Origin: an uncultured Pelagibacteraceae bacterium
Lineage (GTDB): Bacteria > Pseudomonadota > Alphaproteobacteria > Pelagibacterales > Pelagibacteraceae
Direction of reading: 5' to 3'
NCBI GenBank assembly: GCA_902521615.1
Contig: CABYSJ010000004.1
Location: forward strand, 1-64,000
DNA: 64,000 nt
Part shown: positions 49,633-60,731 of the stretch, one piece after another
Position numbering within the stretch: the first letter of the stretch is position 1
Layout: each line of letters opens with the position of its first letter
Translations under genes and position numbers: made by a program
The notes under the pieces: model-generated
Databases searched by the model: none
Told to the model about the DNA's origin: nothing
The model's input: the letters and a program-made list of their open reading frames with translations, nothing else

Positions 49633-50213
49633 AATAAGCTTAAGTATTCTTTAATTTTTTTTACAGGTAAACCCATAATTGTATCTTCGTCACCTTCTAT
49701 GCTTGCAAATAAGCTTCTGCCCTCTCCTTCTATTTGGTAAACGTTATATGCATAAAGTGTTGCATCAGATATTTTAGATAAATAATTTTTTAACTCATCA
49801 TCGGTAAAATTTTTCATTGTTAATTTTGCTTTATCAGTATAATTCCAAATCATAGATCCATTTTTAGATATACAAACAGAGCTAATTAAAAAATGTGATT
49901 TACCGTTAAGTTTTCTTAATATTTCCATTGCCTCTTCTCTGTTTTCTGGTTTAGATATCAGTTCGCCCTCCAAATCTATCACACTATCTGCTCCTAATAC
50001 TATTTCGTCATTTTTTTTCATGCTAACTTTGTTTGCTTTTAATTCAGCTAATTTTTTTGAAATTATTTCTGAACTTGCCTGTTCTTTTATTAAACTTTCT
50101 TTAACAGGCTCTTCATCTACGTTTGAAGGCTCAACAACGCATTTAATATTATTTTTATCTAAAATTTCTTTTCTAACCTCGCTTTTTGAAGCAAGAATAA
50201 TTTTATTTAACAT
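49629..50213 (-). CDS. maf: Maf family nucleotide pyrophosphatase
   Basis: IILASKSEVRKEIL; VLGADSVI; YQIEGEGRSLFASIEGDEDTIMGLPV. Confidence 0.95.
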   Translation of the reverse strand: MLNKIILASKSEVRKEILDKNNIKCVVEPSNVDEEPVKESLIKEQASSEIISKKLAELKANKVSMKKNDEIVLGADSVIDLEGELISKPENREEAMEILRKLNGKSHFLISSVCISKNGSMIWNYTDKAKLTMKNFTDDELKNYLSKISDATLYAYNVYQIEGEGRSLFASIEGDEDTIMGLPVKKIKEYLSLL

Positions 50214-51030
50214 TGTTTAAATATATTTCGTGAATTTTAATTATAGAAGCTGCTGTTTCTTCAACTGATTTTCTCGTTACGTCTATAAGGGGCCATTTAT
50301 ATTTTTGAAATGTTTTTTTTGCCTCTAGAACCTCTTTTTTAATATTTTCTAAATCTGTATATTCAATATTTTCTGTTTCTCTCAAAGAGTTCATTCTATT
50401 TTTTCTCAAATCAGCTAGTCTTTCCGGCTCTGTACTTAGTCCTACAACACATGTCATTTGTGGATTTTTTTTAAGGGAATCTGGTAAAGAATTTTCATTT
50501 ACTAACGGAATGTTTGACGTTTTAAAACCTTTGTTAGCTAAGTAAATAGATGTTGGTGTTTTACTTGTTCTGCTTACGCCTACAAGAATAATATCAGATT
50601 TGTTTACTTCGTTTATTAAATTTCCATCATCATGATTCATTGTAAATTGAATTGCTTCAATTCTGTTATAATACTCTTCATTCAGTATATGTTGACCACT
50701 TGGCTCGTGTGTTGCTTTTTGATTTAATATTTTTGAAAAATTCAGAATTAAATTTCCTAAAACGCCAAAACATGGAATATTTTTATCCTCGCTTGCATTC
50801 GCAAGATGTTTAGCTAAGTTGTTATCGACGATTGTATATAAAATTATTGAATTTTCATTTTTTTTTGCATCCTCTAGAATTTTAAGAATTTGGTTTTCTG
50901 TTCTTGTAAAGGAGTAAGAATGAACCTTATATTCTATATTTAAAAATTGAGCCTTCAGAGCTAAAAATATTCTGTCTAAAGTCTCGCCCGTTGAGTCAGA
51001 AATTAAATATATTTGATATGTATTACTCAT
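50203..51030 (-). CDS. ppsR: PPDK/PEP synthase regulatory kinase/phosphorylase
   Basis: YLISDSTGETLD; HEPSGQHILNEEYYNRIEAIQFTMNHDDG; LVGVSRTSKTPTSIYLANKG. Confidence 0.95.
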   Translation of the reverse strand: MSNTYQIYLISDSTGETLDRIFLALKAQFLNIEYKVHSYSFTRTENQILKILEDAKKNENSIILYTIVDNNLAKHLANASEDKNIPCFGVLGNLILNFSKILNQKATHEPSGQHILNEEYYNRIEAIQFTMNHDDGNLINEVNKSDIILVGVSRTSKTPTSIYLANKGFKTSNIPLVNENSLPDSLKKNPQMTCVVGLSTEPERLADLRKNRMNSLRETENIEYTDLENIKKEVLEAKKTFQKYKWPLIDVTRKSVEETAASIIKIHEIYLNNVK

Positions 51031-51297
51031 GAATAAATTGTTAATAAATTTGTAATATTTTAATTAAATTACACAATTTAAAATTTTTTAAATTAACCTT
51101 GTAAAAACTGCTATTTTTTAACATTAATAATAAATAGGGTAAAACAATCCACAAAAATTAATATGGTTAAAAAAGCTTCATTTTAAACAATTTTATTCAG
51201 ATAACTTGTTGGTAAATTGTGAATATTATGTTTATAAAAATTAATCACCTTTATTCACAAGATATATTACAACTACAATAATTAATAATACTTATTT
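51031..51297. other. Candidate chromosomal replication origin (oriC)
   Basis: 267-bp AT-rich gap between ppsR and hemE with divergent gene orientation; contains TTATTCACA (51251-51259), reverse-strand ATATTCACA (51218-51226) and CAATCCACA (51145-51153); hemE-linked oriC is known in alphaproteobacteria such as Caulobacter. Confidence 0.65.
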
Positions 51298-52302
51298 ATG
51301 AAACCTTTAAACAAAGTAATAATCAATAAGGACACTTCATTTAATCCTATATGGATTATGAGACAAGCAGGTAGATATTTACCAGAATTTAGAGAAATAA
51401 GAAAAGAAAATCCAAATTTTATTAATTTATGTTTAAATGATGATTTATCTTCAGAAATAACTCTACAACCATTAAAAAGATTTGATCTGGATGCTGCAAT
51501 AATATTTTCAGATATCTTAATGCTTCCCTATGGGTTGGGCCAGAAAGTAGAATTTCAAAAAAACTTTGGACCAAAGTTAGGGGAACTAAACTTAAATGAA
51601 ATTGCTAGGACTGATGAAATTGACTTTGTAGAGAAAATACATCGTGTCTATAAAGCAATAAAAAAAGTAAATTTAGATTCTAGTTTAAAATATAAAAACA
51701 CTATTGGATTTGTCGGTGCTCCGTGGACATTATTAGTTTATATGATTAATCAACAATCTCCTAAAAAGAATTTAAAAAAAGATTTTTTTAAAGATGGGTT
51801 TTTAATAAACAGAATTTTATTAATTATTGAAAAGTTTTTAAAAGTTCACATAAAAAATCAAATTGACAATGGAGCAAATGTAATTCAAATTTTTGATAGC
51901 TGGGCAGGCTTGTTAGAGGAAAAAGATTTACCTAATTATGTTTATGCTCCAACTTTAAATTTAGTAAATTATGTAAAATCTTTGAATGTTCCCGTAATAT
52001 GTTTTCCGAGAGAGATTAAAAATTATAAAGAATTTTGTGATATTGTTAAACCCGACGCTGTTAGTATCGACTATAATATTGATCCAAAAAAAATACTTAG
52101 AGACATAAGTATACCCATACAAGGAGGTTTAGACCCAAAAATTTTGTTAACAGACAAAGAAACATTAAAAAAAGAAGCTTTTTATTATTTAGAAATATTT
52201 CGAGATCACCCGTATATATTTAATCTTGGCCATGGTATTTTGCCTGAAACAAATCCAGAAATGGTTGAAAACTTAATTAAAATTGTAAAAGATTTTAAAT
52301 GA
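51298..52302 (+). CDS. hemE: Uroporphyrinogen decarboxylase
   Basis: PIWIMRQAGRYLPEFRE; IIFSDILMLPYGLG; FVGAPWTLLVYM; NLGHGILPETNPEMV. Confidence 0.98.
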   Translation: MKPLNKVIINKDTSFNPIWIMRQAGRYLPEFREIRKENPNFINLCLNDDLSSEITLQPLKRFDLDAAIIFSDILMLPYGLGQKVEFQKNFGPKLGELNLNEIARTDEIDFVEKIHRVYKAIKKVNLDSSLKYKNTIGFVGAPWTLLVYMINQQSPKKNLKKDFFKDGFLINRILLIIEKFLKVHIKNQIDNGANVIQIFDSWAGLLEEKDLPNYVYAPTLNLVNYVKSLNVPVICFPREIKNYKEFCDIVKPDAVSIDYNIDPKKILRDISIPIQGGLDPKILLTDKETLKKEAFYYLEIFRDHPYIFNLGHGILPETNPEMVENLIKIVKDFK

Positions 52303-58450: not shown

Positions 58451-59094
58451 TGGATCAGGAAATTTTAAATTTTTATTCTAGAATTAATTACTTAAATGTT
58501 TCACGTGAAACATTTTTGGACTTTGAAAACTATATATCTATGATTCTTGAAAAAAATAAAAAAATCAACATAATTAGCCAAAATACAGCATCAAAAAAGG
58601 CTATAATTGACCGCCATATTATAGATTCTGCACAAATAATTGATTTTGTTGATTTAAATAGCAATACAACCACAGATATAGGCTCAGGAGGCGGTATGCC
58701 AGGTATAATCGTGGCAATTATACTAAAAAATATGAAAAATAATATGAATGTGCACCTTTATGAAAAAAGTTATCATAAAAGCCATTTTTTAAAGGAAGTT
58801 TCAAAAAAATTGAGTTTAAACACAAAGGTTTTCCAAAAAAATATTTTTGAAATAAAAAATTTAGAAACAGGAACAATAATGTCCAGAGCATTTAAGCCAA
58901 TGCCAGTAGTTTTAGATTTAGTATATGAAAATTTTTCAAAATATAAAAATTTAATTTTTTTTATGGGAAAGAATGGAAAAAAAATTTTTGAAGATTCCAA
59001 AAAAAATTGGAAGTTGGAGTATATAGAAAAGAAAAGTTTAACAAGTGAAGACTCATTTTTAATAAATATTAAAAAAATTAAAAAAATAAATTAA
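58450..59094 (+). CDS. rsmG: 16S rRNA (guanine-N7) methyltransferase RsmG
   Basis: NVSRETFLDFENYISMILEKNKKINIIS; TDIGSGGGMPGIIVAI; MSRAFKPM. Confidence 0.95.
   Translation: MDQEILNFYSRINYLNVSRETFLDFENYISMILEKNKKINIISQNTASKKAIIDRHIIDSAQIIDFVDLNSNTTTDIGSGGGMPGIIVAIILKNMKNNMNVHLYEKSYHKSHFLKEVSKKLSLNTKVFQKNIFEIKNLETGTIMSRAFKPMPVVLDLVYENFSKYKNLIFFMGKNGKKIFEDSKKNWKLEYIEKKSLTSEDSFLINIKKIKKIN
58494..58515. promoter_or_regulatory. parS centromere-like site (ParB binding), inside rsmG
   Basis: AAATGTTTCACGTGAAACATTT, a 22-bp perfect palindrome containing the 16-bp consensus TGTTTCACGTGAAACA at 58497-58512; parAB lie directly downstream. Confidence 0.97.
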
Positions 59095-59889
59095 ATGCAA
59101 ATTATTTCAGTAATAAATCAAAAGGGTGGGGTTGGAAAAACTACTACTGTGATAAATCTTGCGGCAGGTTTATCTCAAATAGATAAAAAAATTTTAGTAA
59201 TTGACTTAGATCCACAAGGTAACGCTACCACAGGTCTAGGATTATCTAATATGGATAACTCAAGTGATACAATTTATGGAGTATTGAATGGAACTAGAGA
59301 AATTAGTGATGTGATTAAAAAAACGCAGTTCGAAAATCTAGATATTATAACTTCTAATGTTGATTTATCAGGTTTAGAAGTAGAGACGGCTGATGACAGT
59401 AATAGGGCTTTTATACTTAAGACTAAATTAACCCCATATTTAAACGATTCTAGAAGATTATATGATTATGTCTTGATCGATTGCCCACCTTCGTTAAGCT
59501 TGTTGACAGTCATGGCACTTGTAAGTTCAAACTCTCTATTGGTACCACTTCAGACTGAATTTTTTGCTTTAGAGGGTTTAACGCAGTTAATGAAAACGAT
59601 CGAAAGGATAAAAGTAAGCTTAAATCCAGTTTTGAAAATCAGGGGTATACTTTTAACTATGTATGACAAAAGAAATAAGCTTTCATCTCAAGTAGAGAAA
59701 GAAGCTAGGGATTATTTTAGTGAAAAAGTTTACTCAACTGTCATACCAAGGAACGTCAGACTATCAGAAGCACCCTCCCATGGTATGCCAGTATTGATTT
59801 ATGATAAGACATGTCCTGGAAGCAAATCTTACTTTAATTTTACTGACGAGTTTATGAATCAAGAATCAACAATTGGGAGTGCTGCTTAA
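59095..59889 (+). CDS. parA: Chromosome partitioning protein ParA (Soj)
   Basis: IISVINQKGGVGKTTTVINLAAGL; VIDLDPQGNATTGLG; IDCPPSLSLLTVMAL. Confidence 0.98.
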   Translation: MQIISVINQKGGVGKTTTVINLAAGLSQIDKKILVIDLDPQGNATTGLGLSNMDNSSDTIYGVLNGTREISDVIKKTQFENLDIITSNVDLSGLEVETADDSNRAFILKTKLTPYLNDSRRLYDYVLIDCPPSLSLLTVMALVSSNSLLVPLQTEFFALEGLTQLMKTIERIKVSLNPVLKIRGILLTMYDKRNKLSSQVEKEARDYFSEKVYSTVIPRNVRLSEAPSHGMPVLIYDKTCPGSKSYFNFTDEFMNQESTIGSAA

Positions 59890-60731
59890 TGGATAAGATT
59901 AAAAAAGGATTAGGAAGAGGACTTTCATCGCTGATTGGTGAGACGAAAATTGAACCTCAAAAAAATCAGATATCGATTAGCGATCTGGTCCCAAATAAGT
60001 ATCAACCAAGAAAGATATTTGATGAAACTAGTTTAGAAGATCTAACCAATTCGATTAAAGAAAGAGGAATGATACAGCCTATAATTGTTAGAAATTCAAA
60101 AAATGATAGAACAAAGTTTGAAATAATTGCAGGTGAGAGAAGATGGCTAGCAGCACAAAGAGCTGGTCTTCACAATGTCCCTGTTGTCATAACGGAAGCA
60201 GATGATTTAAAATCTTTAGAATTTGCTATTGTAGAAAATGTTCAAAGACACGACCTAAATCCTCTTGAAGAAGCTCAAGGATATAAACGATTGATAGATG
60301 AATTTTCTTATGATCAAGAAAAAGTGTCAAAGTTCATTGGAAAGAGCAGGAGCCACATAACTAATTCTTTGCGTCTCCTTACTTTACCAGATGATGTGAT
60401 CAAATTAATTGAAACTCAAAAATTAACAGCAGGTCATGCTAAAGTTTTAGTAGGTCTTGAAAATGCAAGTTTTGTAGCATCAAAAATCATTGAAAAAAAA
60501 CTTTCAGTTAGACAAGCAGAAAATTTTGTAAAAATATTCAAAAATAAAAAACAAAAATCTCGAATTTCTAAAGACACAAATATCACTGCTCTTGAATTAT
60601 CTATTTCTAACAAAATAGGTTTAAATGTTGACATACAAAATACTAAAAGAAATAAGGGCACAATAAGTTTTGAATATAAAGACTTAGATCAATTAAACAA
60701 AATTATTGATATTATAAAAGCTAATTACTAG
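59889..60731 (+). CDS. parB: Chromosome partitioning protein ParB (Spo0J)
   Basis: GLGRGLSSLIGE; VPNKYQPRKIFDE; IIAGERRWLAAQRAGL; EAQGYKRLIDEF; GKSRSHITNSLRLLTLP. Confidence 0.98.
   Translation: MDKIKKGLGRGLSSLIGETKIEPQKNQISISDLVPNKYQPRKIFDETSLEDLTNSIKERGMIQPIIVRNSKNDRTKFEIIAGERRWLAAQRAGLHNVPVVITEADDLKSLEFAIVENVQRHDLNPLEEAQGYKRLIDEFSYDQEKVSKFIGKSRSHITNSLRLLTLPDDVIKLIETQKLTAGHAKVLVGLENASFVASKIIEKKLSVRQAENFVKIFKNKKQKSRISKDTNITALELSISNKIGLNVDIQNTKRNKGTISFEYKDLDQLNKIIDIIKANY

Follow-up and report, generated by a model that had tools for sequence, protein, structure and literature searches.

The ppsR/hemE gap as the probable replication origin of a SAR11 chromosome

The DNA analysed here (the window) spans 64,000 nucleotides and forms the start of an 84.8-kb contig; the draft genome, from an uncultured Pelagibacteraceae bacterium, consists of 31 contigs. 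This bacterium belongs to SAR11, which is among the most abundant marine bacterial groups. The locus is built around a short intergenic gap between two divergent genes, with a partitioning site and its genes to the right:

51031..51297, no strand: intergenic gap between divergent ppsR and hemE, 267 bp, 16.5% GC; probable oriC
50203..51030, minus strand: ppsR (Kinase-PPPase, DUF299/COG1806), left flank; PF03618, E 1.3e-88
51298..52302, plus strand: hemE (uroporphyrinogen decarboxylase), right flank; PF01208, E 2.9e-82
58497..58512, no strand: exact parS TGTTTCACGTGAAACA, a palindrome with 0 mismatches; it falls within the rsmG coding sequence (NVSRET), 7.25 kb away from the anchor box
59095..60731, plus strand: parA and parB (AAA_31/ParA; ParB_N, HTH_ParB, ParB_C)

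Beyond ppsR, the minus strand continues with maf, aroE, coaE, and dnaQ, and hemE opens a plus-strand series of hemH, hemJ, rho, mnmE, mnmG, rsmG, parA, and parB. A first-pass annotation had described ppsR to dnaQ as reading leftward and hemE through parB as reading rightward, with parS about 7.2 kb away, and the gene order, the strands, and the exact parS site all bear this out. It had also called the gap AT-rich and the longest non-coding gap of the window. The gap's 16.5% GC compares with 22-40% across 2-kb windows, by which measure its AT content exceeds the genome average, as is expected of hemE/COG1806 origins. Counting ORFs of 70 aa or more, 51031-51297 is indeed the longest ORF-free stretch; the one longer uncovered piece, 1-866, belongs to a gene cut by the window edge. 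No Rfam or tRNA match was found in the gap.

COG1806/DUF299 is taken here to be the ppsR family. COG1806 contains DUF299, and the gap between hemE and the COG1806 gene has been identified by experiment as the origin of Caulobacter and predicted to be that of Rickettsia (PMC1914354). In Hyphomonas, hemE is where the marker frequency is highest, and parAB is found about 7 kb off (PMC6650430). The gap of the window lies between genes for a PF03618 and a PF01208 protein, the position that characterizes the alphaproteobacterial hemE/COG1806 origin. It shares its flanking genes, its AT-richness, and the presence of DnaA boxes with Caulobacter crescentus Cori and the Rickettsia prowazekii origin, and the placement of parAB a few kb away with Hyphomonas. 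As the ppsR/hemE gap is the expected origin place for Alphaproteobacteria, an origin here would be an ordinary one and no new kind of element. Within SAR11, one paper mentions a manual identification of the P. ubique HTCC1062 origin, in a passage that gives no position (PMC4033161). Metagenome coverage of SAR11 displays a single V-shaped origin and terminus, in passages that name no origin locus (PMC9589681).

The gap harbors seven words that resemble DnaA boxes to different degrees:

51039..51047, minus strand: DnaA box TTATTAACA on the ppsR side; ranks second among the 9-mers enriched in the gaps, conserved in near relatives
51115..51123, plus strand: degenerate DnaA box TTTTTAACA, found by alignment and scan; many relatives have TTATTAACA here
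51145..51153, plus strand: weak box-like word CAATCCACA, 2 mismatches to TTATNCACA; conserved in near relatives, not in the diverse set
51218..51226, minus strand: box-like word ATATTCACA, 1 mismatch; conserved in near relatives
51229..51237, minus strand: DnaA box TTATAAACA, found by scan and conserved in near relatives
51241..51249, plus strand: weak partner box TTAATCACC, which immediately precedes the anchor box and forms a tandem pair with it; similar words stand there across relatives
51251..51259, plus strand: anchor DnaA box TTATTCACA, pointing at hemE; the best conserved word of the gap

Among the grounds for its origin call, the first-pass annotation had listed the boxes at 51251, 51218-51226 (reverse; TGTGAATAT, 1 mismatch to TTATNCACA), and 51145-51153. 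These words are real and correctly placed, but as evidence for an origin the list is weak by itself, and it missed the better boxes at 51039-51047 and 51229-51237. The gap contains a single consensus TTATNCACA. One exact box is no evidence, because the window as a whole holds two copies of TTATNCACA where 3.6 are expected. The broader word TTATN[CA]ACA occurs 15 times in the window against 13.9 expected, so that counts of these words over the whole 64 kb give no signal. Three of the 15 fall inside the gap, where 0.19 are expected (P = 0.0012, dinucleotide shuffling). Elsewhere in the window no 267-bp stretch holds more than one, which makes the gap the window's top cluster. The case for an origin is carried by comparative evidence and not by box counts in the window.

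For this comparison, a search of the own genome and 60 relatives located ppsR in 31 of them, every one from the window's genus. All 30 fetched same-genus ppsR loci (the window's own included) have a divergent hemE neighbour at a distance of 261-284 bp. The gap measures 257-284 bp over 30 same-genus loci and three of genus g172, and 266-270 bp in 79 near relatives. All 79 near-relative gaps carry TTATNCACA, and TTATN[CA]ACA reaches 13.9 per kb in these gaps against 0.16 in their flanks (85 times denser). The 30 diverse same-genus gaps provide the stronger test, as near relatives are not independent. When 9-mers were ranked in this set without a prior motif, the top word was TTATTCACA (17/30 gaps against 0.3 expected) and the runner-up TTATTAACA (23/30 against 2.0). 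TTATN[CA]ACA totals 87 in the same gaps, where about six are expected. The column of the anchor box reads TTATTCACA in 14 of the 30 relatives, and most of the others have TTAT[TC][AC]ACA or are one base off. The arrangement extends across the class, in which ppsR and hemE are divergent in 29/30 loci and the density of TTATNCACA per kb is 1.29 for the gap and 0.02 for the flanks.

The gap outlasts the loss of either neighbour gene. In family f2, the other sampled family of the order, a search for ppsR in 24 genomes found none, and maf now adjoins hemE across a gap of 271-281 bp (seven loci examined, L166-L172). The f2 gaps contain diverged boxes, few of which match the SAR11 word, together with TATATA runs and, in several, CTACTACTA. 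In genus g5 the opposite side has changed. Here the interval from the origin to rho lacks hemE, hemH, and hemJ (G143:C1:141329-141681 and L297-L302), and the ppsR/rho gap retains recognisable core words such as TTAACCCCATTATAAACATGACCTAATAA in 7/7 loci. The complete g5 genome G143 has its hemE at 718 kb, near the skew maximum (772 kb). Both flanking genes are thus dispensable to the conserved core. Since the gap persists when ppsR or hemE is lost, it fits an origin and not a promoter of either gene. The adjacency to hemE, on which the earlier call had leaned as an established marker, holds class-wide in the 29/30 loci mentioned above, but it is unsafe as an origin marker because g5 has hemE elsewhere. 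Wolbachia, Ehrlichia, and Anaplasma have origins between hemE and COG1253. The f2 origin is like theirs in staying beside hemE while the ppsR neighbour changed; unlike theirs, which have a rearranged partner, it has lost ppsR, and maf is simply the next gene of the ancestral order.

On the scale of whole chromosomes, three complete genomes were sampled for box clusters: G012 and G235 of the window's genus (about 67% each) and G143 of another genus of the family (about 33%). The densest 300-bp cluster of TTATN[CA]ACA in the sampled parts is the ppsR/hemE gap in G012 and G235 and the equivalent ppsR/rho gap in G143. GC skew was likewise taken from these relatives because the own genome is a 31-contig draft. 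In G012, the strand-corrected skew allows 1.255-1.315 Mb; the gap (1.262 Mb) falls in this range, and dnaA (1.199 Mb) is disfavoured. In G235, the best strand-corrected fit is 65 kb and the gap lies at 66.8 kb, and G143 has its raw minimum at 140,997, beside the start of its gap (141,329). The raw minima of G012 and G235 are about 28-29 kb off the gap, so the three genomes span 0.4-29 kb. The accepted ranges in G235 and G143 take in dnaA too. The skew is weak and broad; it agrees with the gap but cannot fix the origin to the base. Both checks that had been suggested for the origin call, the position of the skew minimum and the conservation of the DnaA-box words, were carried out on relatives, and neither refuted it: the skew fits are compatible with the gap and broad, and the words are conserved.

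From the sequence evidence, the ppsR/hemE gap is very probably the oriC of this SAR11 chromosome (probability roughly 0.94). The call of the first-pass annotation that replication starts here is thereby supported: box conservation, the top cluster, a compatible skew, the nearby parS/parAB, and the persistence of the gap all agree. The boxes, their conservation, their genome-wide clustering in relatives, and their independence of either flanking gene are direct observations.

The gap could instead be a mere double promoter or regulatory region, whose conserved words bind a transcription factor, or DnaA acting as one. The divergent ppsR and hemE both need promoters in the gap, and the conserved sequence on the hemE side could hold a -10 element. 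This explanation is nonetheless very unlikely, as the module survives ppsR loss in f2 and hemE absence in g5, TTATN[CA]ACA is clustered more densely in this module than anywhere else in the sampled complete genomes, and what is enriched is precisely the DnaA box. Less probable still is an origin adjoining dnaA, a gene some 63-72 kb off in complete relatives, with the hemE gap serving as a DnaA-titration or regulatory cluster. Origins beside dnaA are common in other bacteria, and the skew ranges of G235 and G143 include the gene. A survey including P. ubique set its origins by rule at the first base of dnaA (PMC2031905). Against such an origin stand the 10/11 genomes without a box in the 300 bp upstream of dnaA, the skew of G012, and the origins of Caulobacter and Hyphomonas, which have been mapped to hemE (PMC1914354, PMC6650430).

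If the ppsR/hemE gap is the origin, its hemE side is the presumed place of unwinding:

51266..51297, plus strand: presumed unwinding region, CTA-rich and DnaA-trio-like, passing into AT-rich DNA that extends to the start codon of hemE

A basal unwinding system consisting of a DnaA box, a spacer, and DnaA-trios operates in Bacillus subtilis and many other bacteria. The SAR11 gap resembles the B. subtilis system in its order of tandem boxes, CTA-rich stretch, and AT-rich DNA. The box-spacer-trio system has been described (PMC8287927) and involves a DnaA box with at most two mismatches, optionally in tandem, which in the window corresponds to TTATTCACA at 51251 with the weak TTAATCACC at 51241. 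In the stretch after the anchor box, the 30 relatives contain 55 CTA against 23.8 in mononucleotide shuffles, and NTACTA/CTANTA is present in 27/30 against 6.9 expected from the same shuffles. At the CTA-rich stretch, family f2 and genus g172 carry CTACTACTA followed by TATATA runs, and the clear CTACTACTA in f2 and one g172 genome adds to the likeness. The strict DnaA-trio rule demands at least three NAN trios no more than 16 bp from the box. It does not hold in the window, where the stretch has one CTA only, and across the genus it holds in 20/30 loci against 17.8 by chance, which is no significant signal. The CTA enrichment is real, yet it is a weaker criterion than the trio rule. Since that rule does not hold, a likeness to the box-spacer-trio system is claimed here and not membership.

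The initiation reaction would start with the binding of DnaA to the few TTATN[C/A]ACA boxes spread over the gap. The tandem pair at 51241-51259, the weak TTAATCACC followed by TTATTCACA, points toward hemE. From there DnaA-ATP may extend onto one strand of the CTA-rich, DnaA-trio-like stretch and open the AT-rich DNA that reaches from 51266 to the start codon of hemE. The opened DNA would allow DnaB to load and two forks to leave, and parS/ParAB, 7.25 kb off, would then separate the new origins.

Several features set the SAR11 gap apart from published hemE/COG1806 origins. It is shorter (267 bp against more than 400 bp), its boxes are shifted toward TTATNAACA, and the window gap contains neither an IHF word nor the CtrA site TTAA-N7-TTAA. 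In the 30 relatives, TTAA-N7-TTAA is found 20 times against 7.8 in mononucleotide shuffling, a count confounded by the TTAA inside the boxes. No protein scored above the cut-off for the Rhodobacterales CtrA regulator (133 of 350 bits). IHF sites number three in the 30 relatives against 3.0 expected. The missing IHF word does not exclude membership, because IHF words are degenerate and both CtrA and IHF sites vary among published hemE/COG1806 origins (PMC1914354). GATC words in the gap gave nothing convincing.

The sequence GANTC is the target of the methyltransferase CcrM. It is nearly excluded from the SAR11 gap: 80 near gaps together hold one site, where the loci around them have 1.33 per kb, and the 30 diverse gaps hold two, where 9.6 are expected. 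A CcrM-like methyltransferase is present all the same in 6/6 genomes searched, and CcrM has been noted in SAR11 (PMC3973325). Three parts of the picture are less expected: GANTC is nearly missing from the gap, the boxes have shifted to TTATNAACA, and either neighbour can be lost while the core stays in place. A possible but somewhat doubtful reading is that the SAR11 type of origin has been streamlined into a short module, made up of TTATN[A/C]ACA boxes with one tandem-box/CTA-rich core, devoid of recognisable CtrA/IHF control, purged of CcrM sites, and kept in place as an autonomous unit when ppsR or hemE is lost.

Estimates of growth from metagenome coverage need the correct origin position. 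The origin core is recognisable in drafts and partial genomes, and a prediction based on hemE would misplace the origin in genus g5, as in G143 with its hemE near the skew maximum. An exact parS copy lies 7.5-9.5 kb away in 41 of the 58 near relatives whose contig reaches that far; the rest have no close copy in the fetched flank, apart from one further near relative with a single change. The DnaA proteins of these genomes have the usual RDHTT signature in domain IV. The distance between dnaA and the origin gap (hemE in f2) is about 62-72 kb in eight genomes, which represent three genera (G012, G036, G004, G009, G235, G143, and, from f2, G037 and G038).
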